NCBI RefSeq assembly: GCF_038024855.1
Contig: NZ_CP139089.1
Span: 2,886,501-2,950,500 of the forward strand
Length of the DNA: 64,000 nt
From: Methylocella tundrae
Lineage (GTDB): Bacteria; Pseudomonadota; Alphaproteobacteria; Rhizobiales; Beijerinckiaceae
Direction of reading: 5' to 3'
Of the stretch, positions 3,357 to 63,834 are shown piece by piece. The translations under genes were made by a program, and so were the position numbers. The notes beneath the pieces were generated by a model. It did not search any database. It saw only the letters and a list, made by a program, of their open reading frames with translations, and was not told the DNA's origin. Position 1 is the stretch's first letter. Each line of letters begins with the position of its first letter.

Positions 3357-4174
<818 letters not shown>

Positions 4175-50999: not shown

Positions 51000-51018
51000 A
51001 GGTAGGAAGGGTTTGCCC

Positions 51019-51731: not shown

Positions 51732-52148
51732 TCAGTCCTGGTTTCGACACCCCTCGGCGGCCCGAGTAAAATGACGCATTAGCCGATCCGCGGTCTGTGA
51801 ACCGAGACCAACCTTGGCAATCGCCTTCGTCATGCAGGCGAGCCAAAGATCCCGCTCCTTGCGGCCGATCGGAACATGCGCATGCATCTCTCGAAGATGC
51901 GCATGCCCATATTTCTGCACGTAATATTGCGGACCACCGAGAAAACCGGACAGGAAGTTAAATTGCTCGATTCGAGAATGGGCGACGCCGTGTCCCCGCA
52001 GATGAAGCAGATGTAGTTCCTTCGCCTCCGGGTCCGTCTCGACAATGTCGTAGAACGTCTCGACCAGCCGACGAATTTCCTCCTCGCCACCCATACTCTC
52101 ATAGAGCGATTGCATTTGCCTCAGAGCGCGCACAAACGGATCCTCCAT
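51732..52148 (-). CDS. Group II truncated hemoglobin
   Basis: This 138-residue globin has SLYESMGGEEEIRRLVETFYDIVETDPEAK, FLSGFLGGPQYYVQKYGHAHLREMHAHVPIG and ERDLWLACMTKA. The proximal heme His is in the LREMHAHVPIG stretch, and the Trp of DLWLACM is the G8 Trp of group II. Group II members bind O2 tightly and are linked to redox or reactive-nitrogen protection. It sits downstream of the dimethylamine monooxygenase genes on the same strand, but a repeat of over 100 bases lies between. Confidence 0.88.
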   Translation of the reverse strand: MEDPFVRALRQMQSLYESMGGEEEIRRLVETFYDIVETDPEAKELHLLHLRGHGVAHSRIEQFNFLSGFLGGPQYYVQKYGHAHLREMHAHVPIGRKERDLWLACMTKAIAKVGLGSQTADRLMRHFTRAAEGCRNQD

Positions 52149-52195
52149 CGACGATCGGCGGGTTTTTCGATAAGCCGTAACGTCGCCTTGGGCCG

Positions 52196-52313
52196 CTAGA
52201 GCGCTTACCGATCGAATGGAGTCATTCGATCGCTCAGAAATCGCTCCAGCTTCAAAAGCTTGAGCATATTCTTCTCGATCAGATCGAACCGATCTGATCG
52301 GAATATGCTCTAG
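52196..52313. repeat. Composite palindromic repeat flanked by CTAGAGC / GCTCTAG
   Basis: Two dyads sit inside. At 52209-52232, CGATCGAATG and CATTCGATCG enclose GAGT. At 52262-52310, GAGCATATTC pairs with GAATATGCTC, and inside it CGATCAGATCG pairs with CGATCTGATCG. The outer ends are mirror images (CTAGAGC and GCTCTAG). The right end supplies the stop codon of dmmC on the minus strand. The large hairpin could stabilise or terminate the dmm transcript. Confidence 0.82.
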
Positions 52314-53365
52314 AGCTCCGCCTGCTCTGAGTGGGTTCCGCTCGACAACGCGGCGCCGTCATCGAAAGGCGCGAGATAATCGACGACCATTTTGCGAAAG
52401 CGGGTCAGCCCTTTGTAATCTTCAAGCTCCGGACGAAGATCGCGCAGCACGCGATGCAGGCGCTTGCGCCATTTATCGACTTTTGCGATATCGCCGACGC
52501 TGATCAGATAGCAGCGGATTCCGAACAGAATGGCGTTTGAGCGCGGCAGACGGAAAAGGGTCTGCAATTCAACGCGCAGAAACACCTTGTCGGCGACGTT
52601 TTCAGGGGTGACGGTCGTACGGTCCGGTCCCCACAGGGGATAATTTTCCGGGCTGGTGTCGAGCCTCGGATTGATGGTCATCGTCCAGTTCAATCTGCGC
52701 ACCGGCTGGCCATATTGAAGCCGCAAGAGGAATTTCAGCGCGCGGTCGAAGACGCCGATCTGATGCGCGAGCGGAACCGGTCCGTGCCATTCGTGAAACG
52801 TCATGCCGATGTTGAATTCGAGCGACCAGTCAGCCTGCGTCGTGACCATTCCGCCGTCGACGAATAAATTGTCGTCGCGCTGGTCCTGCAGGGTGAAGTC
52901 GCCCTGCGCCTGGCGCGTGATATATTCGAACGGTTCGCAGGGGAGCGTCGCCTCATCGCCAAAGGTGAATGTTTGCTTCAGTCCGAGCGGGCGATTCTCC
53001 CAGGTCCAGCGGGCTCCATCCTTGGTGAGAGAGAAGTCCTGGGGGTAATCCCTGGCGAAGCTCTCCATGATGAGCTCCAGCGTGTCCCACTGAGCCGCCA
53101 TCATATGCGGCAGCACCTTGCAACGGCCCGGATCCTCCTGCAGCACCAGGGCCCTCTCCCGGCATTCCGCTACATAGTGTTCGTCAATGTCGAACAGATG
53201 GTCGAGAGCCGGCGTCGCCCCGCCCCTGACATGAGGCTCGATGTTGACCGAGTACATGTAGGCGTCTTCGGGGAACGGGAACGGAAAGCGCAGGATGGCC
53301 TCGTCGCTGTTGCAAAAGGCGAAGTCGCGCCGGAATGTCTCAGTCGGTTTGAACCGCGTGTTCAT
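52310..53365 (-). CDS. dmmC: Dimethylamine monooxygenase heme subunit (DUF3445 family)
   Basis: This is a 351-residue protein of the DUF3445 / heme-dependent oxidative N-demethylase family. Visible blocks are FPFPFPEDAYMYSVNIEPH, HMMAAQWDTLELIMESFARDYP, EFNIGMTFHEWHGPVPLAHQ and LFVRVELQTLFRLPRS-like (FLRVELQTLFRLPRSNAILFGIRCYL). The family uses heme in a PAS-like fold to hydroxylate dimethylamine, giving monomethylamine and formaldehyde. It is the last gene of the cluster, after the reductase and the DmmA-like gene. Subunit letters follow gene order and may differ between authors. The ATG at 53365 follows GGAGAAA. Confidence 0.82.
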   Translation of the reverse strand: MNTRFKPTETFRRDFAFCNSDEAILRFPFPFPEDAYMYSVNIEPHVRGGATPALDHLFDIDEHYVAECRERALVLQEDPGRCKVLPHMMAAQWDTLELIMESFARDYPQDFSLTKDGARWTWENRPLGLKQTFTFGDEATLPCEPFEYITRQAQGDFTLQDQRDDNLFVDGGMVTTQADWSLEFNIGMTFHEWHGPVPLAHQIGVFDRALKFLLRLQYGQPVRRLNWTMTINPRLDTSPENYPLWGPDRTTVTPENVADKVFLRVELQTLFRLPRSNAILFGIRCYLISVGDIAKVDKWRKRLHRVLRDLRPELEDYKGLTRFRKMVVDYLAPFDDGAALSSGTHSEQAEL

Positions 53366-53452
53366 CAATTTCTCCGCTTCATTTCGCTGATGTTGGCGCG
53401 CTTGCGTTCACATCATTGGCGTTTCAAACGGCCGAACCGGCGCTCCGCCGTG

Positions 53453-54418
53453 CTATAGATCGAGGATGAGGCTGTTGGTTTTCGCCCTCGAGACGCAAAT
53501 CATGATTGACCGGTTCGATGCGTGCTCCCCGGCGTCAAGAAAATGATCGCGATGATCCGGCTCTCCCTCGATCACGCTCGTCAAGCACTCGCCACAGGCG
53601 CCGCCGCGACACAGGCAGGCAGGCTCAAGGCCGGCTTCCTCAATCGCTTCGAGCAGCGTCTGATCGTCGCGAACACTGACTTTGAGGCCGGAGCGCTGCA
53701 AGATCGCGATGAACGGAACGCCGCCGGCGTGTGCGCCGCCGAACGATTCAGAGTGAAGCTTCGACTTCGGCCATCCATGGTCTCGCGCGGCGGCGAGCGC
53801 CATCGTCATCAGGCCTTCAGGACCGCAGGTATAAAGATGCGTTCCCAGAGGTTGCGATGTGAGCGCTGCTGAAAGATCGAACGCCGCCGAAGCCGGATGA
53901 ATATGGATGTTCGAGGCATCGAAGCAGGATAGAATGCTCTCGAAGACCGACACTTCCTCATCCCGGCAAAAGTGGTGCAGCTCGAACGGCGCTCCGTCTT
54001 GTTTCAACGCCGTCATATAAGCAAGAAAAGGCGTCACGCCGATGCCGCCGCTGACCATCAGATGTTTCTGCGCGATACGCGATATGGGGAACAGATTGCC
54101 CGGCTCGTGCGCGGCGACGATATGCCCTGTCTCGACGGCCTCATGCAGAAAGGCGGACCCTCCCCGCGATTGAGCGACCCGGCGCACAATGATGGCGAGG
54201 TGACTGCGATCAGCCGGCGCGGAGACGATCGAATAAGCGTTCTTCCAGCGCCGGCCGCCGCCCTGCAGCGTCAAGCGAAGATGAGCGCCGGGGCCCGCTG
54301 GCGGAAGTTCGCCGCCATCCGCGGCCTCAAAAACGAAGCGTTTCAGCAAAGGCGAGATTGGCTCGGCCTCGCGAACCCTCAAGGCAAGGTGCTCCACGAA
54401 TTGATCAGCGCCGTTCAT
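53453..54418 (-). CDS. dmmB: Dimethylamine monooxygenase reductase subunit (flavin / 2Fe-2S)
   Basis: This 321-residue phthalate-dioxygenase-reductase-type protein has a flavin barrel (1-100) with NAYSIVSAP, an NAD(P) domain (100-225) with MVSGGIGVTPFLAYMTAL and TCGPEGLM, and a C-terminal plant-type ferredoxin. The ferredoxin reads CLCRGGACGECL with a fourth Cys in SIMICVSRA, giving the C-x4-C-x2-C-x(n)-C cluster pattern. It should move electrons from NAD(P)H to the DUF3445 heme subunit encoded next. Its ATG overlaps the upstream gene stop (ATGA). Confidence 0.88.
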   Translation of the reverse strand: MNGADQFVEHLALRVREAEPISPLLKRFVFEAADGGELPPAGPGAHLRLTLQGGGRRWKNAYSIVSAPADRSHLAIIVRRVAQSRGGSAFLHEAVETGHIVAAHEPGNLFPISRIAQKHLMVSGGIGVTPFLAYMTALKQDGAPFELHHFCRDEEVSVFESILSCFDASNIHIHPASAAFDLSAALTSQPLGTHLYTCGPEGLMTMALAAARDHGWPKSKLHSESFGGAHAGGVPFIAILQRSGLKVSVRDDQTLLEAIEEAGLEPACLCRGGACGECLTSVIEGEPDHRDHFLDAGEHASNRSIMICVSRAKTNSLILDL

Positions 54419-55020
54419 GGAAATGCCTCTTCAATTGAAGGGAGCTCGCCGGGGGATTCGGCGTCAACCTGCACCCCCATGAAGGCCGCGAGCCGCCGCG
54501 AAAAATGATCGCGGACGAGCAGATGCGCGCCACAGCCGCTGCAGGCGACAATATTGGTCGCGACGTTTTCTGTGAAAGCGCGGCAGTGGACGCAATAGAC
54601 GCGCCGCCGTTCCGATCCGGCGTGGGTCAAGTGATATTCGCCATCATCCATGCCCGAGGAGCGCGCGAGCTTCGCGACGTCCCAGACGAAGGCTTCGAGC
54701 CCGACCGCATACAGGCGAAAGCCCATCCGTTCGCGCGCCAGACGATGGGGGAGCGCATCGAGCAACTGCGTCGTCGATCGGAAGCTACGCGAGATTGCGT
54801 TTAGCTCGGGCAGCGGAGATTGGGCGATCCTGCTGTCGCCGAGCGCGGACCAGAACTCGACTCTCGCATTGCCAGGCAAGGACGCCAGCAATTCGGCGCC
54901 TGGCGCCATCGCGTGATCGGCCGCGATAAGATGACTTCGTCCAGTCGGATCGATCGCCAAGGCCTCATATACAGGCCGACTGACTATGCCGGAAACAAGC
55001 ACTTCAAACTCCTTGACCAT
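54415..55020 (-). CDS. dmmA: DmmA-like subunit of dimethylamine monooxygenase
   Basis: This is a 201-residue protein. The N-terminal part (1-130) resembles a small reductase-like or adaptor domain without motifs. The C-terminal part has two C-x-x-C pairs, CVHC and CSGC, eighteen residues apart, in RRVYCVHCRAFTENV and IVACSGCGAHLLVRDHFSRR. This metal-knuckle pattern is that of DmmA C-terminal domains. Gene order and overlap with the reductase support the assignment. The start is taken as the ATG at 55020; a TTG at 55053 with an overly close AGGTGG is less likely. It lies 51 bases after tdm. Confidence 0.78.
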   Translation of the reverse strand: MVKEFEVLVSGIVSRPVYEALAIDPTGRSHLIAADHAMAPGAELLASLPGNARVEFWSALGDSRIAQSPLPELNAISRSFRSTTQLLDALPHRLARERMGFRLYAVGLEAFVWDVAKLARSSGMDDGEYHLTHAGSERRRVYCVHCRAFTENVATNIVACSGCGAHLLVRDHFSRRLAAFMGVQVDAESPGELPSIEEAFP

Positions 55021-55071
55021 CGCGCCAATGGCGACAAACCAAAACAGCCGCAATCCACCTCAGCGGCGCAT

Positions 55072-57378
55072 TTAAGCCCTCACCCGGGATTTATCGGGAT
55101 TGTAATGGGGGAAACGCGTGACTGTCGCCTTCAGCCGCTTCTGTTGTCCGTCCAGCTTCCCGATTTCGACAGGTGTTCCGATCGCGGCGTACGCCATATC
55201 CAACCGCGCCAGCGCGATCGTCTTTGCAAGCTTCGGCGAGCGCGTCGCGCTTGTGACGACGCCGACCTGGGCGCGTCCCACATGGACTGGATCGCCGTGG
55301 CCGACGTGTTCATTTCCCGCGATGTCGAGACCGACGAGTTGACGGACCGGGTGCGCGCGGCGCCGGGCGAGCGCTTCGGAGCCGACATAGGACTCCAGCT
55401 TCTCCGCCGGGACCGAAAAGCCAATGCCCGCTTCAAACGGATCGGTCTGATCGCAGAATTCGAAATGGGCGAAGATCAGACCGGCCTCGATGCGCACCAT
55501 ATCGAGCGCGGCGAAGCCGAACGGCGCGAGTCCATAGGGTTCGCCGGCCGCAACGATGGCGTCCCACACCTTTGGCCCGGAATCGGGATGGCACCAGATC
55601 TCATAGCCAAGTTCGCCCGTATAGCCTGTGCGGGACACGAGCACCGGAGCGTTCGCTATCTTGCCGATGGTGAAGCGGAACCATTTGAGTTCGTCAATTG
55701 AAGGCTGATGCGGCGGCGTCGCCAGAACTTCCCGTAGAATGTCGCGGGATCTTGGCCCTTGCAGGGCGACGTTATGGAGTTGATCCGTCGACGACTTGAC
55801 CCACGCGCGCAGCCCTTGCTCCGCAGCCAGCTGACGCAGCCAGACGCCGCAATAATCGTCGCCGCAGACGAGGCGAAAATTATTCTCGCCCAGGCGGAAG
55901 ACTGTGCCATCGTCGATCATGCCGCCATGCTCGTAGCAAAGAGCGGTATAGACGACCTGCCCGACCGCGAGCTTGCGGATGTTACGCGTGACGGCGCTCT
56001 GAAGCAGGGCTTCGGCGTCGGGGCCGGTGATCTCGAATTTGCGCAACGCGGAAAGATCCATCAAGGCTGCGCGCTCGCGGCAAGCCCAATATTCCGCAAC
56101 AGGTCCGGCGGCGGCAAAGCATTGCGGCATCCAGAAGCCGCGGTATTCGATGAAGCCGCGCGTCAGCGCCGAGGTTCTTGAATGAAAGCCGGACTCGCGC
56201 GTCAGTTTCGGCGGCGCATCGGGTGTCATGCGGTGTGCTATCCCTTTGGAAAAGTTGGAGGCGGCGTCATAGACCCGGACGTGGATGTCGGTCGGCGCCC
56301 AGCCGTTGGCGGGGTCAATGTCATCGGCGCAGGAAGATGAGGCGCAGACGAGATCGGTCAGAGCGCGGAGCAGCACGTAGTCGCCCGGCCGCGACCAGGG
56401 TTCGTCCATCCCGATGCTGTTGTCGTGGGAGACGAATGTGTTGTAGAAAAAATTGACGGCCGGCCATCCGCGGCGGGGCCTGACGCCAAAAGCCGCGAGC
56501 GCCGCATTGAAATTATCAGTGCAGTTGCCATGCCCTGGATAGCCCATATCGTCGTAATATTTTGAATTGCAGGCCAGCATGAAGGTGTCGTGTCTGCCCA
56601 CAGTGTCGCGCACGACTTCGACCAGTGGCCCCATGTCCTGATCAAAATATTTCGAATAGAGACCGGGCCCAGGCGTAGCGGAGCCCATCAGCGTGCGCGT
56701 CGTCGTTGGATCAATGGCGAGTTCGCGTCCGTCTGCGAGAGCCTTGGAGTCGAAGGCGAGAAAGTCAGAACATTGACGCCCCTCGACGTCGATGATCTGA
56801 ATATATTCGCCAGCCGCGACGCGATAGCCGCTGGCCGTCGCGGCCTTCACGCGCAGATCAAGCCTTGGCGTTGCGAGGGGGGGTGGAAGCGCGGCGGCGC
56901 GGTCGTGCGGCGACTGGATATTGATCCGCAGCTCGGTCGGCGCATCTTGCTCGTCCGGCCGCATGCGGTCGCCCGGAGCCGCAAGGAGGCAGCGCATGTC
57001 GGCCGGCGCCTTGAAGCGGACGCTGGCGCCGGCCACGCTTTCACGGCCGAACAACAACGTCGTTTCCAGCAGCTCCGCATCTGCTCGCGCCGCTAGAAAG
57101 GCGCGGGCGAGTTCGGCGTCGGCGCCACAGGCGGTGACGCATTCATCACCGCCGAAGGTCAGCGTCGCAGCATCAGCGAAGTGGCTGCTCAGAACCGGCC
57201 TATCCGAGGCGACAAAAAGTTGACCGATCTGACGGCCTTCAGGATCGATGATTGTCGCCTCGTCGCCAGCGCGGAGGACGAAGGCGGCTGCGCCACCGCC
57301 CGGTGCGCAAAGCAGCCGCGATCGCGGCCGCAACCCTTTAGCTGAGACGTCAAGCGAGCGCGTTACTTCGAGATTCAT
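55072..57378 (-). CDS. tdm: Trimethylamine-N-oxide demethylase
   Basis: This 768-residue two-part enzyme has an N-terminal DUF1989-type region (about 20-395). Its probable metal cysteines are Cys270, Cys286, Cys345 and Cys350, in MLACNSKYYDDM, GHGNCTDNF and VCASSSCADD. A C-terminal GcvT/aminomethyltransferase domain follows (about 400-760; YRGFWMPQCF, RTGYTGELGYEIW, GFAALDMVRIEAGLIF). The first part splits TMAO into dimethylamine and formaldehyde, and the second is thought to pass formaldehyde to tetrahydrofolate. This architecture is the one characterised in Methylocella silvestris. It sits between tmm and dmmA on one strand. Confidence 0.9.
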   Translation of the reverse strand: MNLEVTRSLDVSAKGLRPRSRLLCAPGGGAAAFVLRAGDEATIIDPEGRQIGQLFVASDRPVLSSHFADAATLTFGGDECVTACGADAELARAFLAARADAELLETTLLFGRESVAGASVRFKAPADMRCLLAAPGDRMRPDEQDAPTELRINIQSPHDRAAALPPPLATPRLDLRVKAATASGYRVAAGEYIQIIDVEGRQCSDFLAFDSKALADGRELAIDPTTTRTLMGSATPGPGLYSKYFDQDMGPLVEVVRDTVGRHDTFMLACNSKYYDDMGYPGHGNCTDNFNAALAAFGVRPRRGWPAVNFFYNTFVSHDNSIGMDEPWSRPGDYVLLRALTDLVCASSSCADDIDPANGWAPTDIHVRVYDAASNFSKGIAHRMTPDAPPKLTRESGFHSRTSALTRGFIEYRGFWMPQCFAAAGPVAEYWACRERAALMDLSALRKFEITGPDAEALLQSAVTRNIRKLAVGQVVYTALCYEHGGMIDDGTVFRLGENNFRLVCGDDYCGVWLRQLAAEQGLRAWVKSSTDQLHNVALQGPRSRDILREVLATPPHQPSIDELKWFRFTIGKIANAPVLVSRTGYTGELGYEIWCHPDSGPKVWDAIVAAGEPYGLAPFGFAALDMVRIEAGLIFAHFEFCDQTDPFEAGIGFSVPAEKLESYVGSEALARRRAHPVRQLVGLDIAGNEHVGHGDPVHVGRAQVGVVTSATRSPKLAKTIALARLDMAYAAIGTPVEIGKLDGQQKRLKATVTRFPHYNPDKSRVRA

Positions 57379-57445
57379 TGTTACGCCCTATTCATTGGCG
57401 GCGGTTCACACTGCGTTAGCTCGTTCGAGCTGAAGCGCGCGCCGC

Positions 57446-58813
<1,368 letters not shown>

Positions 58814-58855
58814 TTATTCAAAACTGTGGTTGATCATAGACGTTGGCGAACCCGT

Positions 58856-59992
58856 TCAGCGTGGAGACCGCTCGCTCAAGGGATGGGTGCGAAGACGAAG
58901 CGGATCGTAGAAGGGCGTTTTGACCACGCGCGCTTTGAAGATTCCGGCGTCGCTCCGGATCTCGAGCTCCGTCCCGAACCCTTTGTGCGCCGGCTCAACA
59001 TGCGCCAGGGCGATCGAACGCATCAGATGCTGGCTGTATGTGCTGCTGTTGACGATGCCGGTCTGCTTGCCGCCTTTGAAGATCTGTGCGCCGGGCTCGA
59101 TGGCCTCGTGATGATCGATCTCGATTCCGACTTGCGCAACGCGCTTCTGTCCGCGTCGGCGCGAGAGAGCGTCCTTGCCGCGGAACGAAGGCTTGTCGAG
59201 ATCAACCGTCCAGTCGACGCCGACTTCCCATGGCGTGGTGTCGCCCTCTGGCATGTCATAAGGGAAGAACAAAAGGCCGCCCTCGACGCGCACGATGTCA
59301 AGACAGGCCCAGGAGACGGCCATCGCGCCGAAAGGCTTTCCGGCGTCGAGAATGGAGTCCCAGATGAAGACGGCGTCTGCGGCCCTGCAGAAGACTTCAT
59401 AACCGCGCTCACCCGAATAGCCGCCCCGCGCGATCGAAACGTCGCGGCCAAACAGAGTGGTTTTCCGGTGCTCGAAATAGCGCAGGTCGGCGAGGTTCAT
59501 GGGTGTATGGGGCGCAAGAATGTCGAGCGCCTTCGGTCCTTGAAGCGACAGAATATGCGTATCGTTGTCTTTGCGGAAATGCACTTCCCGCCCAGCGGCG
59601 ATGCTCGGCAGAACATCCTCGAGTGCGCCGCCGCCGTGCGAAATCCGATAGGCGTCCGGACCGTCGCAATAAATCAGAACGTCGTCGATCAAAGAGCCGT
59701 TATCGTCGACGATATTGCTGAGCGCCGATGTGCCCGGCTTAATTTTTGTGATGTCGGAGGTAAGCATCTCGTTCAGCGCGCTGAGCGCGTCCCTCCCGGA
59801 CACGTCGATGAGGCGCAGGGCCGTCACATCGAACAGGCCTGCGCTGGTTCGCACGGTTGTCGTCTCAACGTAAGGATCTGTAGCGTAGAGCTGCGGGATG
59901 GGCATGTCGTTCCAGGACGACTCGAATTTGGTCCCGAGTTGCCGGTGGCGTTCATTCAACACGGATTGGCGGGAATAGACATGGGTGTTCAT
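58856..59992 (-). CDS. GcvT-family aminomethyltransferase-like protein of the methylamine cluster
   Basis: This 378-residue single-domain GcvT relative has TSAGLFDVTALRLIDVSGRDAL, ILSLQGPKALDIL, GGYSGERGYEVFC, ACLDIVRVEGGLLFFPYDM and an end with STYSQHLMRSIALAHVE. Such proteins bind tetrahydrofolate. In dimethylamine clusters of marine bacteria a GcvT-like DmmD accompanies DmmABC and is thought to channel formaldehyde to methylene-tetrahydrofolate. The same job is likely here, for the DMA step or alongside Tdm. The ATG at 59992 (MNTHVYSRQ) is preferred. It lies between the permease and tmm. Confidence 0.82.
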   Translation of the reverse strand: MNTHVYSRQSVLNERHRQLGTKFESSWNDMPIPQLYATDPYVETTTVRTSAGLFDVTALRLIDVSGRDALSALNEMLTSDITKIKPGTSALSNIVDDNGSLIDDVLIYCDGPDAYRISHGGGALEDVLPSIAAGREVHFRKDNDTHILSLQGPKALDILAPHTPMNLADLRYFEHRKTTLFGRDVSIARGGYSGERGYEVFCRAADAVFIWDSILDAGKPFGAMAVSWACLDIVRVEGGLLFFPYDMPEGDTTPWEVGVDWTVDLDKPSFRGKDALSRRRGQKRVAQVGIEIDHHEAIEPGAQIFKGGKQTGIVNSSTYSQHLMRSIALAHVEPAHKGFGTELEIRSDAGIFKARVVKTPFYDPLRLRTHPLSERSPR

Positions 59993-60083
59993 CGAAGAGC
60001 GTCCCTTGATGCATTCCATTGAAGTTGGAAGCGTGTTTTTGAGAGAGCCGCGCCCGCACCGGAACGATTCGGGCGCGGAAGGT

Positions 60084-61802
60084 TTAGAGCTGGAAGAACC
60101 AGTTGGCGGCGAGCAAGACGACGACGCCGGCGATCAGCGTCAAATAGGGAAGAAAGCCGGCTTTCTTCGTCACAATCGTTTTTCCGTCGCCGATTTGAAG
60201 ATCCTCAAAGGTCTCGTGCGGGAACTTGCCGCCGTCCTGGACATAGTGCCGGTAGAGAAAAACGGGGATGATGAGCGCCGCCGTGCCGAGGCCGGCCCAT
60301 AGCGCCACCGGATTCCAGACTTTCGCGCCGGCGCCCATGAATATGACGTTGACGAAGGCGAAGACCGCGCCGAGCCCGATGATCCAGGAGGGCGCTTTGT
60401 ATGGGCGCGGAACATGCCCCGAATCGATCCGGTGGAGCCAGCCGGAATTGAGATTGAGGAAGTTGAAGATGATGTAGCCGCAGTTAGACACCGCGAGGAT
60501 GAAGAAGAAGCTCGTGGCGTCGGCGCAGGCGATGGCGAGGAGGATCAAATTGAAGGTCAGATCGGTCCACATCGCGCGCGTCGGCGCGCCATGCTCGTTG
60601 ACATGGCTGAGGTAGCGGGGCAGCCAGCCATCGACCGATCCCTGATAGAGCGTGCGCGACGATCCGGCCATCGCGGTCATGATTGAGAGAATGAGAGCCA
60701 GTATCATCAGCATCACAAGGATGCTCTCGACAAATTTGCCGCCGCCGACCATATGCGCCATGGCCTGGGCGACGCCGGAGCCGTCGACGATCGCCGGATC
60801 GAGCATTCCGTTTAGGCCGAGTACGCCCTGGAATGTGAACGGCACCAGGATGAACAGGGCCATGCAAAGAAGGCCGGAATAAAAGATCGCTTTGAATGTA
60901 TCCTTCGAAGGGTCGCGAAATTCGCTCGTGTAGCAGACAGCGGTTTCAAATCCATAGGTCGACCACGCGGCGATGAACATGCCGCCGAGGGCGAGAGTCC
61001 AACCCGGTATGTTCCAGCTTCCTGGTTCTGGCGCCGAGGCGGCCGCGAGTGGAACGAGCGGAGAGAAGTTACTCCAGTCCACTTTGCCGGTAAGAAGCGG
61101 AACCACACCGACGACGACCATTGGTATGATGACAGTCAGGCCAATCCATTTCTGGACATTCGCCGTGCCGAGAATGCCGCGGTGCTGAATCGCGAAAACC
61201 ATCAACATCAAGACGGCGCCGACAAAGAACGCCGCATTGAACGAGAAGCTGACCGGGCCGATTGAGTGCGTGAACGCCGTCCAGTTGCGAATATCCGGCG
61301 TCAGCGCCGCAACCGCCGCCGCAGCCTTGTCGGCGTCGGACCCGGAGATGCTCGCGCCATGCGTTGCGAGCCATTGCGCGACTTCCGGTCCACTTGCCAG
61401 CGGGACGGGAGCCAGCGCGTTCAAGATGTAGGCCGCGGCAATTGAGCAACCAAGAGAGAGCACAGGGCTCCAGGCGAACCAGTTGCACCACACGGAGAGC
61501 GGAGCGACCAATTTCGAGTAGCGGACCCATGCCGCAGCGCCGTAGATCGAGGCGCCGCCGGATTTGTTCGGGAACAGGCCCGCTATTTCCGCATAGGTAA
61601 ATGACTGAAGGAAGCCGAGGACGATCGAAACCGTCCATATGAGAAAGGCGAGCTTCCCGGTCGTTCCGGCGATGCCGCCAATGGAGAAGAGGACGAGGGC
61701 CGGGACGCCGCTCGCTACCCAGAAGGCGCCGGTCCAGTTGATAGATCGGTGAAGCTTTCCTTCAGCCTCGCTGCCGAGTGACGTCTCGACGATGCTTGTC
61801 AT
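60084..61802 (-). CDS. APC-superfamily permease, probable TMAO/methylamine transporter
   Basis: This 572-residue membrane protein has twelve or more spans. Amino-acid-permease features include ALVLFSIGGIAGTTGKLAFLIWTVSIVLGF, AEIAGLFPNKSGGASIYGAAAWVRYSKLVAPLSVW and GWTLALGGMFIAAWSTYGFETAVCYTSEFRDPSKDT. A TMAO permease of this type has been described from the tmm-tdm locus of Methylocella. Because it is the first gene of the cluster here, TMAO or a methylamine is the likely substrate. A very strong GGAGGAG ribosome site lies just upstream of the ATG. A promoter candidate is about 80 bases further up. Confidence 0.82.
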   Translation of the reverse strand: MTSIVETSLGSEAEGKLHRSINWTGAFWVASGVPALVLFSIGGIAGTTGKLAFLIWTVSIVLGFLQSFTYAEIAGLFPNKSGGASIYGAAAWVRYSKLVAPLSVWCNWFAWSPVLSLGCSIAAAYILNALAPVPLASGPEVAQWLATHGASISGSDADKAAAAVAALTPDIRNWTAFTHSIGPVSFSFNAAFFVGAVLMLMVFAIQHRGILGTANVQKWIGLTVIIPMVVVGVVPLLTGKVDWSNFSPLVPLAAASAPEPGSWNIPGWTLALGGMFIAAWSTYGFETAVCYTSEFRDPSKDTFKAIFYSGLLCMALFILVPFTFQGVLGLNGMLDPAIVDGSGVAQAMAHMVGGGKFVESILVMLMILALILSIMTAMAGSSRTLYQGSVDGWLPRYLSHVNEHGAPTRAMWTDLTFNLILLAIACADATSFFFILAVSNCGYIIFNFLNLNSGWLHRIDSGHVPRPYKAPSWIIGLGAVFAFVNVIFMGAGAKVWNPVALWAGLGTAALIIPVFLYRHYVQDGGKFPHETFEDLQIGDGKTIVTKKAGFLPYLTLIAGVVVLLAANWFFQL

Positions 61803-62751
61803 TCCCTCTCCTCCTTCGCGATTTCGATTCTTGTCGGCGTAGAGCTGCGGCCTAAGAGCACAGGTTTGGCGACGCTCGATTTAGACAGCGGTTAAACCGA
61901 ATGTCAAAATAATTTCTTCGTAAGAAACCACTTTGAGCAGTATGCCTATAATGCAGTGTCATCGCCTATCAAATGAGCAAAGACATGAAAGCCATAGAGA
62001 GGTTGTGACAGGAGGTGTTATCCGACAGGCAAGCGTATAACGCTGCCAACGCTACGAAATGGGGTAGCTGGATACATAGGAGAGCAGTATCGTGATCGCC
62101 GTATGGCGACGCGATTATTCACTGCAGCAGAAGCGCGAGATTCTTAGAGAGTGTGTATGCGCTATATGAGACATGGATAAAACAAGATGGACTTGATTTA
62201 TCTGCGGCCGCACAGCGGAAAATAAGCAATTGACAGAAGCTCGTGGCTCGAACGCCCGCTTCCAGTGGCGACCTGTCGCCACCGCCCGCTTTTATACTCT
62301 TGGATCGTCCCTCCAGACGTCTTGATTATGGTCCTGTTTAATTCGCCTCGGTGCATCGGCGCAATGGTGCCGATTGGCACTATCGAAGCCGGCAGATAGT
62401 GATAGGCGCCGTCTCCTCCTCCTTCATCCTCCATCCCCGCGCGCAGACGGGATCGCGCCGATCGAGCGACGACAAGCGAGGGAGCCAGTCTGGAACTCGG
62501 GCAGTCCGCACCGGGCATGCGCTTTGCTTGGCGACCGATCCGCTGGCTGATAGACGCGGACGGGGCAGACCGCCGTTGAAGACGCCGCCGTCGCGGCACG
62601 GAGGCGAAGGAACGTCACAAAAGGCTTGTGTTTTTAGTGTCCCCGGCGCGGGTGACAAGCTTTGTAGGCTCAAGATCCGGACGCCGTTGCAAATCCTTTG
62701 CGTTTTGGCTTTTGTCCCGGCAAGCTCTATCTCATTCTATGGATTGGACGC
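61803..62751. other. Long AT-richer divergent region between the permease and the LuxR-type gene
   Basis: These 949 bases contain no supported gene. Short frames on both strands (for example minus 62198-62434) match nothing recognised. The stretch 61900-62200 is clearly AT-richer than the rest of the window, which hints at a regulatory zone or an acquired remnant. It holds the promoter candidate at 61879-61907. No inverted-repeat ends or transposase piece was seen. Confidence 0.5.
61879..61907 (-). promoter_or_regulatory. Promoter candidate with embedded dyad for the TMA/TMAO/DMA cluster
   Basis: Read on the minus strand, TTGACA (61907-61902) is followed after 17 bases by CTAAAT (61884-61879). 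The -35 is perfect; the -10 is weak. The spacer contains the perfect palindrome CGGTTTAACCG (61889-61899), suited to an operator. The predicted transcript start would be roughly 70 bases before the permease ATG. A regulator bound in the spacer would block or, if it distorts DNA, activate. Confidence 0.4.
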
Positions 62752-63834
62752 ATGTCGCAATCGGCGGAATACGCGATGAGCAGTCATGTTGAGAAATCGC
62801 CGTTGCTTCGCTTCGATGACGAAGAATGGTTTCGGCGGCTTGGCGGGGTCGCGAGATCGATCGGGACGGACGGATTTCATCGAGAACTGATAGATCTATT
62901 TGGCGCCAGCATTCGACATGAATCGAGCTGGATCATCCGTTATTCACGAGTTGCGCCGCCTGATGTTATATATACCCATAATGTCTCCGATGAGACCGTC
63001 GATATCTATAATGAACAATGCTCGGGCGTCGATCCATTTTCACAGTATTGGAAAAGCAATGGCAGCCCTGGAGTTTTGACGCTCTCAGAACTGAAAAATT
63101 CAAGCGCGGAATCGATAATCTATAGCAGAATATTCCAGGCGGCGGCCAATGTGTCTGACGAGATGGGAATGTTCTTCTCGACTGTTGGACATTGCTGCTT
63201 TGGCCTTTTCCTTGAGCGCGAAAAGGGTCATTTTTCAAAGGCCGACGTGCAGCGCGCCCAGCTGATATTTCCGGCCCTCGAAGGATATCACCGGGCTCAT
63301 CTCGGATGGCTGTTCAACGATCTTCGGCACACGAACGATACCGAAATAAAGGGCTTCATAAAGCGGCCCACATTGATTCAGGATCGCTTCGGCGTCGAGG
63401 TGTATTCCAATGAATCCTGGAATCAGGCGGTTGCCTCGGACGCATCCATCATGTCGACGGTCGCCACGCTGTTCGCCGGGTCGAGCCCTCAGACGCGTCT
63501 CCTGAAGGACTTTGTTCTTAAGTCGGAAGTGTTCGACAGGGATTTCCCACTGGCGCCGGGAGGGAGAATGTTCGTCCTCGAACCGCAGTCATCGTCCCGC
63601 GACGAGCCCGACTATATCAGCCGGATCGCCAGTATTTTGCACATCTTCACGCCACGCGAGCGCGAGATTTTGACCTTGATCATGAGAGGCCAAAATACCG
63701 GCCAGATCGCTCAGAAACTGGAGATCAGCAAGGGAACGATCAAGAATTGCAGGCTTCGCATTTACCGGAAGGCGGATGTCGTCTCGGAACGCGCGCTCGT
63801 CAAGAAGTTCACGCCGATTTTCCAGTCGCTCTGA
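62752..63834 (+). CDS. LuxR-type transcriptional regulator
   Basis: This 360-residue protein ends in a LuxR/GerE helix-turn-helix: FTPREREILTLIMRGQNTGQIAQKLEISKGTIKNCRLRIYRKADV. The N-terminal three quarters have no recognised domain. They lack the receiver Asp motif and the autoinducer-pocket WYDPW-like motif, so the signal is unknown. Being divergent from the permease-tmm-tdm-dmm cluster, it is the obvious candidate regulator. The start is uncertain: the ATG at 62752 is chosen, and an ATG at 62776 is possible. Codons are less GC-rich than in most genes of the window, hinting at a different history. Confidence 0.82.
   Translation: MSQSAEYAMSSHVEKSPLLRFDDEEWFRRLGGVARSIGTDGFHRELIDLFGASIRHESSWIIRYSRVAPPDVIYTHNVSDETVDIYNEQCSGVDPFSQYWKSNGSPGVLTLSELKNSSAESIIYSRIFQAAANVSDEMGMFFSTVGHCCFGLFLEREKGHFSKADVQRAQLIFPALEGYHRAHLGWLFNDLRHTNDTEIKGFIKRPTLIQDRFGVEVYSNESWNQAVASDASIMSTVATLFAGSSPQTRLLKDFVLKSEVFDRDFPLAPGGRMFVLEPQSSSRDEPDYISRIASILHIFTPREREILTLIMRGQNTGQIAQKLEISKGTIKNCRLRIYRKADVVSERALVKKFTPIFQSL

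Follow-up and report, generated by a model that had tools for sequence, protein, structure and literature searches.

The seven-gene locus and its products

The stretch of DNA analysed here (the window) is a 64-kb segment (C3:2886501-2950500) of the 4.42-Mb, three-contig genome of the soil methane oxidiser Methylocella tundrae (G000). On its minus strand, reading from 61802 to 52310, family scans identify seven open reading frames (ORFs) as tmoP, dmmD, tmm, tdm, dmmA, dmmB and dmmC. A preliminary description of the window had listed seven same-strand genes in this order, and all seven ORFs were found, every one with a family match. We consider the locus, with high confidence, to be a methylated-amine catabolic operon of M. 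tundrae in a derived, locally rearranged order. Coordinates prefixed C3 refer to the contig and all others to the window.

The permease gene tmoP (60084..61802) encodes an APC-superfamily protein (PF13520) of the trimethylamine N-oxide (TMAO) permease type, scoring 895.4 bits with NF053774 against an equivalog cut-off of 690. It is followed by dmmD (58856..59992, with the start at 59992 or 60019), encoding a stand-alone GcvT-like protein (GCV_T PF01571, 204 bits, and GCV_T_C) that falls under the cut-offs of all eight NCBIfam models it matches. Its assignment to the GcvT family in the preliminary description stands; the gene had been left unnamed there, and with 80% identity to the M. silvestris-like copy and the same neighbours it is the DmmD homologue, orthologous to Msil_3605. 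The product of tmm (57446..58801) is a flavin-dependent trimethylamine (TMA) monooxygenase (NF058570, 841 bits, equivalog cut-off 675), with matches to PDB 8b2d (E 5e-213) and 6kbw, "Trimethylamine monooxygenase" (E 3e-201). That of tdm (55072..57378) is a TMAO demethylase (NF053776, 1292 bits, equivalog cut-off 1100) in which a DUF1989 domain (PF09347, residues 177-344) is fused to a GcvT domain (PF01571, residues 399-654), and it matches PDB 9q59, "trimethylamine N-oxide demethylase" (E 5e-264).

The last three genes lie adjacent and in the order dmmABC, each with its own domain signature. DmmA (54415..55053, from TTG 55053 or ATG 55020) contains PF22289 and PF22290 and scores 116 bits with NF041259 (domain-model cut-off 60). 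DmmB (53453..54418) is a flavin/NAD(P) reductase with a 2Fe-2S domain; its flavin, NAD and 2Fe-2S domains are present (PF00970, PF00175, PF00111, together with PF22290) and it exceeds no NCBIfam cut-off. DmmC (52310..53365), a heme-dependent N-demethylase alpha-type subunit, scores 242 bits with PF11927 (cut-off 25), is the sole PF11927 match in the genome at a threshold of E 0.001, and aligns without gaps over 336 residues to the heme-dependent oxidative N-demethylase 5lte (E 1e-147). The family identities are not due to chance, since the TmoP, Tmm, Tdm and DmmA scores exceed their cut-offs and DmmC matches 5lte gaplessly.

Each step assigned to the locus in the preliminary description, namely import, TMA to TMAO, TMAO to dimethylamine (DMA) plus formaldehyde, and DMA to monomethylamine (MMA) plus formaldehyde, is matched by close members of the corresponding families, from which the activities are predicted. 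By analogy with DmmABC of Ruegeria pomeroyi, we infer that DmmABC would convert DMA to MMA with NADPH and O2. The locus had also been called a self-contained oxidative route: the steps are indeed covered, but the wording is loose, the Tdm step being reportedly O2-independent, to go by the title of one study (Zhu 2016), and the formaldehyde having to reach folate. That transfer is probably the task of DmmD and of the GcvT half of Tdm.

Gene order and orthology among relatives

Gene order was compared across 97 loci, comprising the best 80 of 283 found through Tdm and 17 loci from the window's family; the resulting counts are lower bounds, as many loci end at contig ends or at the flank limit. 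The gene set itself is shared with relatives, and the window's order is confined to M. tundrae, the only species in this sample with dmmABC directly 3' of tdm on the tmoP-dmmD-tmm-tdm strand. Outside the window this order is limited to L002 and L127, both from one genome, that of M. tundrae isolate 2 (G144), where the seven proteins are 98-100% identical (Tdm 98%). All seven genes lie on one strand in other orders at six loci (L012, L017, L020, L024, L135 and L139), and dmmABC is divergent from tmoP in the M. silvestris-like genomes G076 and G040 and in G021 and G061. The set is no novelty for Methylocella: M. silvestris-like G076 carries all seven genes, encoding proteins 69-90% identical to those of the window, and dmmABC of M. 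silvestris is already known (PMC5520151).

Phylogenetic trees of TmoP, DmmC, Tdm, Tmm, DmmA and DmmB each place the window and G144 proteins as sister to those of G076 and G040 (support 0.955-1.0). The simplest reading of these trees and gene orders is a local rearrangement in the M. tundrae line, in which dmmABC left its divergent position and came to lie last in the operon; the orthology of the genes to the M. silvestris-like copies argues for rearrangement and not import. Weighing against it is the DmmD tree, where the window protein is nearer, with modest support (0.82), to those of G021, G061 and G136 than to the M. silvestris-like copies, all of them falling in one clade (support 0.817). 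Import of dmmABC from another lineage was excluded, as the DmmA, DmmB and DmmC trees join the window proteins with the M. silvestris-like copies.

Tdm is 75% identical to its M. silvestris-like counterpart, compared with 90% for Tmm. A recombined Tdm was considered and excluded, the tree being clean and the divergence confined to residues 1-170, where identity to the M. silvestris-like copy is 47% as against 84% and 81% elsewhere. We take this as faster change of the N-terminus.

Probable extent of the transcript

The intergenic distances agree with the range given in the preliminary description, from a 4-base overlap to 91 bases. They are 91 bp (ATG 59992) or 64 bp (ATG 60019) between tmoP and dmmD, 54 bp between dmmD and tmm (ATG 58801), 67 bp between tmm and tdm, 51 bp (ATG 55020) or 18 bp (TTG 55053) between tdm and dmmA, and 87 bp (ATG 53365) or 84 bp (TTG 53368) between dmmB and dmmC; dmmA and dmmB share four bases (ATGA). 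From the common strand and gaps of at most 91 bp, we infer a single operon and transcript. Its end may lie at nested inverted repeats located at the dmmC stop codon and beyond it (52259..52313, in the dmmC-globin interval 52149-52330), whose 13-nt arms are 92% and 11-nt arms 100% complementary; these repeats are absent from the list returned by the terminator scan. No structured RNA matched Rfam at gathering cut-offs between positions 51000 and 64000. Behind dmmC on the same strand is a gene for a truncated, bacterial-type globin (51732-52148), and a similar globin gene lies near the cluster in M. tundrae isolate 2 and at two other loci (L009, 47%; L016, 51%).

Alternatively, the seven genes could form two or more transcripts, with dmmABC retaining its own promoter behind tdm. 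In the sister species tmoP faces a separate upstream region belonging to dmmABC, the gaps of 51-91 bp in M. tundrae leave some space for a promoter, and a weak promoter-like match lies within the 3' end of tdm (55128-55099). The promoter consensus scan, however, returned six promoter-like matches over 11 kb where 2.8 (sd 1.5) would be expected, and single matches therefore mean little; the tmoP promoter was not among the six. Nor does the tdm-dmmA interval hold, at up to two mismatches, the palindrome found upstream of tmoP (described below). We regard separate transcripts as improbable and retain the single operon.

Substrate range of the permease

Sixteen genomes had a TmoP match over the cut-off, and four of them (G021, G049, G061 and G136) had no match to Tdm at its own cut-off or to Tmm at E 1e-100, which argues that the permease may carry more than TMAO. 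TmoP may thus import DMA besides TMAO. A stronger version, with DMA or several methylamines and not TMAO as the main substrate, would make the equivalog label too narrow. It is favoured by the presence of dmmA in three of these four genomes and by the arrangement in G021 and G061, where tmoP-dmmD is divergent from dmmABC and tmm and tdm are absent. On the other side, a permease null mutant of M. silvestris has reportedly lost growth on TMAO, and the genome of G136 is only 88% complete. We hold the stronger version to be somewhat doubtful, and keep TMAO as a substrate with DMA as a possible addition.

Two N-methylglutamate blocks

According to the preliminary description, MMA would need enzymes beyond the window. 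Such enzymes are present: N-methylglutamate pathway genes lie elsewhere in the genome in two copies, and gmaS occurs twice. A block mgsABC-gmaS-mgd of 9,679 bp is duplicated in inverted orientation at 99.73% identity (C3:2565048-2574725 and C3:2810526-2820204), the copies being about 236 kb apart. Its genes were named by family matches, gmaS and the soxA- and soxB-type subunits scoring over cut-offs and the mgs genes matching related models only. Copy A is flanked on either side by M. silvestris-like neighbours and occupies the ancestral place. The exact tmoP palindrome, together with a gene for an XRE-cupin protein, lies directly upstream of copy B only.

A palindrome common to tmoP and mgsA promoters

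The palindrome TTTCTT-N3-AAGAAA (61913..61927), a putative operator, lies 110 bp before the tmoP start and is the single site at up to two mismatches in the window. It abuts a -35-like hexamer, TTGACA (61902..61907, minus strand), after which the -10 sequence is weak. Across four aligned Methylocella tmoP promoters GTTTCTT-N3-AAGAAA-N-T-N-TTTTGAC is invariant, while much of the surrounding sequence has changed.

Within the source genome the exact palindrome occurs at two sites, those of tmoP and of mgsA in copy B, compared with 0.02 expected from composition alone. A search of 19 genomes returned 14 exact sites in eight of them, and 11 of the 14 are at tmoP, mgsA or gmaS. Apart from the source genome, the sites are at tmoP and mgsA in G144; between tmoP and dmmA and at mgsA in G076; between tmoP and dmmA, at mgsA and at a periplasmic binding protein gene in G040; at mgsA and about 400 bp before gmaS in G136; between the XRE-cupin gene and mgsA in G008; between the XRE-cupin gene and a periplasmic binding protein gene in G103; and at one further site in G021. 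The 14 sites are not independent: G000 and G144 belong to the same species, and G076 resembles G040. Every one of the eight genomes carries gmaS, as do seven of the other 11 searched (four lack it). The reversed pattern, used as a control, was absent from G000, G144, G076 and G040 and had a single site in G103 and another in G172. At up to one mismatch, the source genome held eight palindrome sites against four of the control.

The motif as read from tmoP promoters was then sought, at up to two mismatches, in the 300 bp before N-methylglutamate genes, genes with under 200 bp of sequence ahead of them being excluded. It was found before 18 of 22 mgsA genes (dinucleotide shuffles: mean 0.42, maximum 3, in 60 rounds), and was not found before mgsB (0/20), mgsC (0/21), gmaS (0/24), soxB (0/13) or soxA (0/8). 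Five of the 22 mgsA loci (L143, L160, L162, L167 and L168) had been selected with an exact site already known; among the 16 chosen for having gmaS and the XRE-cupin gene the palindrome was found in 12. The four misses (L170, L172, L176 and L187) all belong to these 16, and L176 and L187 encode distant MgsA copies (37-39%).

At the TMA and DMA genes of the family loci (the window and L125-L141) the site is exact in the window, L125, L126 and L127, all from Methylocella, and has two mismatches in L129, L131, L132, L133, L140 and L141; L128, L130 and L134-L139 have none at up to two mismatches. Nine loci found through Tdm gave one mismatch in L012, L016 and L017, two in L020, L024 and L031, and none within that limit in L021, L032 and L035. 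Some of the two-mismatch matches in these counts may be due to chance. In G076, in addition to the exact palindrome between tmoP and dmmA, there is a one-mismatch site on the dmmA side and another before dmmD; the window, with one site, has fewer, which speaks for the relocation of dmmABC.

The genes for periplasmic binding proteins noted above are of the Peripla_BP_5, ABC-transporter kind and lie downstream of the palindrome (at L164:5736 in G103 and L163:1036 in G040); that of G103 is beside the XRE-cupin gene. A Peripla_BP_5 gene is a possible third member of the regulon discussed next.

Candidate regulators

The XRE-cupin gene beside copy B (C3:2809799-2810449) encodes an N-terminal HTH_3 domain (PF01381, residues 40-92) and a C-terminal Cupin_2 domain (PF07883, residues 156-211), both over cut-offs, which is the architecture of PuuR-like XRE-cupin regulators. 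Its best NCBIfam match is PuuR, at 50.9 bits against an equivalog cut-off of 211, and it is not classed as PuuR. Among 199 genomes of the window's family, XRE-cupin homologues (E 1e-30) occur in 35 and gmaS over its cut-off in 34; the XRE-cupin protein is found in 32 of the 34 genomes with gmaS and in three of the 165 without (Fisher 3.6e-31, treating the genomes as independent though they are related). The exceptions are G129 and G160, with gmaS alone, and three genomes with the least similar XRE-cupin proteins (38-45%) alone. Both are carried by every one of the 19 genomes that have TmoP, Tmm, Tdm or DmmA. In 25 of 35 cases the XRE-cupin gene shares a contig with gmaS, tdm, dmmA or tmoP at a distance of at most 10 kb; in six of the 35 its contig has none of the four, three of these being in genomes that lack gmaS and one, G144, having the XRE-cupin gene next to mgsA on a short contig.

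These patterns make it likely that the tmoP and mgsA promoters belong to a shared regulon, and make the palindrome the probable site of the XRE-cupin regulator encoded beside one block; a regulon under this protein we rate at about an even chance. Several observations weigh against it. The palindrome precedes the XRE-cupin gene itself in only 3 of 25 cases, and the exact palindrome lies 3.7 kb from the XRE-cupin gene in G076 and on a different contig in G040. Sites at the TMA and DMA genes are patchy, occurring at up to two mismatches in 10 of the 18 family loci, and the eight genomes whose loci have none there (G175, G008, G049, G133, G002, G005, G093 and G029) all carry the XRE-cupin protein. 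Copy A has no palindrome close to its mgsA, which was scored as a match solely through a one-mismatch site 263 bp upstream. Finally, among 40 genomes selected for the absence of gmaS, six held the exact palindrome, at seven sites in all, which sets the background for the bare motif at about 0.2 per genome.

A gene for a LuxR-type regulator (62752..63834, plus strand; GerE PF00196) is divergent from tmoP and might instead encode the operon's regulator, with the palindrome as its site and another role for the XRE-cupin protein. LuxR homologues (E 1e-25) occur in nine of the 199 genomes and adjoin the tmoP/dmm/tmm set in eight of them (44-100% identity), the ninth (G133, 29%) being elsewhere; the gene is also present in nine of the best 80 of 283 loci found through Tdm. 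Near palindromes accompany it, besides the window and L127, in L012 and L017 (one mismatch) and in L024, L031, L129, L132, L133 and L141 (two mismatches). In an AlphaFold2 model (68 sequences, predicted local distance difference test score 84) the N-terminal domain, a predicted sensor, resembles the ligand-binding domain of VqsR (5xhx_B, E 4e-9, TM 0.83 by target length), and a LuxR-family activator, DmfR, is described as governing dimethylformamide use in Paracoccus aminophilus (PMC4543880). Yet tmoP and mgsA both carry the palindrome in the M. silvestris-like genomes, where LuxR has no match (E 1e-25), the mgsA palindrome occurs also in other genomes without such a match, and five loci with the LuxR gene (L021, L032, L035, L128 and L130) lack the palindrome at up to two mismatches. 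We therefore think it unlikely that the palindrome belongs to the LuxR-type protein, which may add TMA- or DMA-specific control, and continue with the XRE-cupin protein as the candidate.

Proposed pathway and its control

The pathway is a known one, described for M. silvestris and Ruegeria (PMC5520151), and its chemistry ordinary for Methylocella; what sets the locus apart is its compact and derived order. TmoP would import TMAO, and perhaps DMA; Tmm would oxidise TMA to TMAO; Tdm would cleave TMAO to DMA and formaldehyde; and DmmABC, consisting of the heme protein DmmC, the reductase DmmB and the accessory DmmA, would oxidise DMA to MMA and formaldehyde. The one-carbon unit would be passed to tetrahydrofolate by DmmD and the GcvT half of Tdm, and MMA would enter the N-methylglutamate pathway encoded by the two blocks. 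Having been ancestrally divergent from tmoP, dmmABC appears to have been relocated behind tdm, where its expression probably relies on the tmoP promoter. A PuuR-like XRE-cupin regulator would bind the palindrome at tmoP and at mgsA of one block. As the palindrome common to these promoters is the probable XRE-cupin site, both halves of the pathway would be under one switch.

Extended to the Beijerinckiaceae, this suggests a regulon in which the gmaS-linked XRE-cupin protein binds TTTCYT-N3-ARGAAA before mgsA and, in Methylocella, before tmoP (and dmmA or dmmD), and takes as its signal an MMA-pathway product, for example gamma-glutamylmethylamide or N-methylglutamate; the move of dmmABC in M. 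tundrae would have removed its separate control. We hold this model with no more conviction than the contrary. If it is true, the whole chain from TMA to ammonium is set by its last stage. The M. tundrae locus is a one-strand version of the pathway, and its comparison with the sister species points to a promoter site and a probable regulator joining TMA, DMA and MMA use in soil methylotrophs. We found no description, for this group, of a palindrome shared with mgsA or of a gmaS-linked XRE-cupin regulator in the open-access literature, where no search was aimed at the palindrome itself. In Rhodobacteraceae, XRE-family, FadR-family and GlxA-family genes near such clusters have already been shown (PMC7574528).

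Comparison with known systems

The closest counterpart is the locus of M. silvestris BL2, where we take Msil_3603-3609 to be tdm, tmm, dmmD, tmoP and dmmABC, the numbers other than 3605 and 3607-3609 being presumed. It has the same seven genes and the same palindrome upstream of tmoP. Differences from M. tundrae, as seen in M. silvestris-like G076, are the dmmABC genes divergent from tmoP, the extra one-mismatch site before dmmD and the lack of a LuxR match (E 1e-25). According to Lidbury et al. 2017 (PMC5520151), Msil_3607-3609 are dmmABC and Msil_3605 is a DmmD homologue; M. silvestris needs dmmABC to use DMA as a source of nitrogen for growth; E. coli given Ruegeria dmmABC alone makes an active DMA monooxygenase; the probable role of DmmD is to join formaldehyde to tetrahydrofolate; and dmmD is required by Ruegeria on TMA, TMAO and DMA and is non-essential in M. 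silvestris. Mutants in dmmDABC have also been made in Paracoccus (Dziewit et al. 2015, PMC4543880). The dmmDABC genes of R. pomeroyi and P. aminophilus encode the same four-protein DMA system as in M. tundrae, but there dmmD adjoins dmmABC, whereas in M. tundrae it does not and sits between tmoP and tmm.

PuuR, the XRE-cupin regulator of the gamma-glutamyl-putrescine pathway, is the nearest named relative of the candidate regulator, although the score far under the cut-off shows that the protein is not PuuR itself. The role of PuuR in a gamma-glutamylation pathway resembles the gmaS context. The scheme proposed here resembles that of TmaR (AraC type) and TmoR (GntR type) in R. pomeroyi in having one regulator for TMA, DMA and MMA genes; TmaR is presented as a master regulator that responds to MMA catabolites, in a source that does not mention a motif, palindrome, binding site, inverted repeat or footprint (PMC13390433). 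Unlike TmaR and TmoR, the M. tundrae candidate is an XRE-cupin protein. If the model is true, soil methylotrophs use an XRE-cupin protein, unrelated to the AraC-type TmaR, for the same job, which provides a directly testable model that puts the use of TMA, DMA and MMA under one switch.

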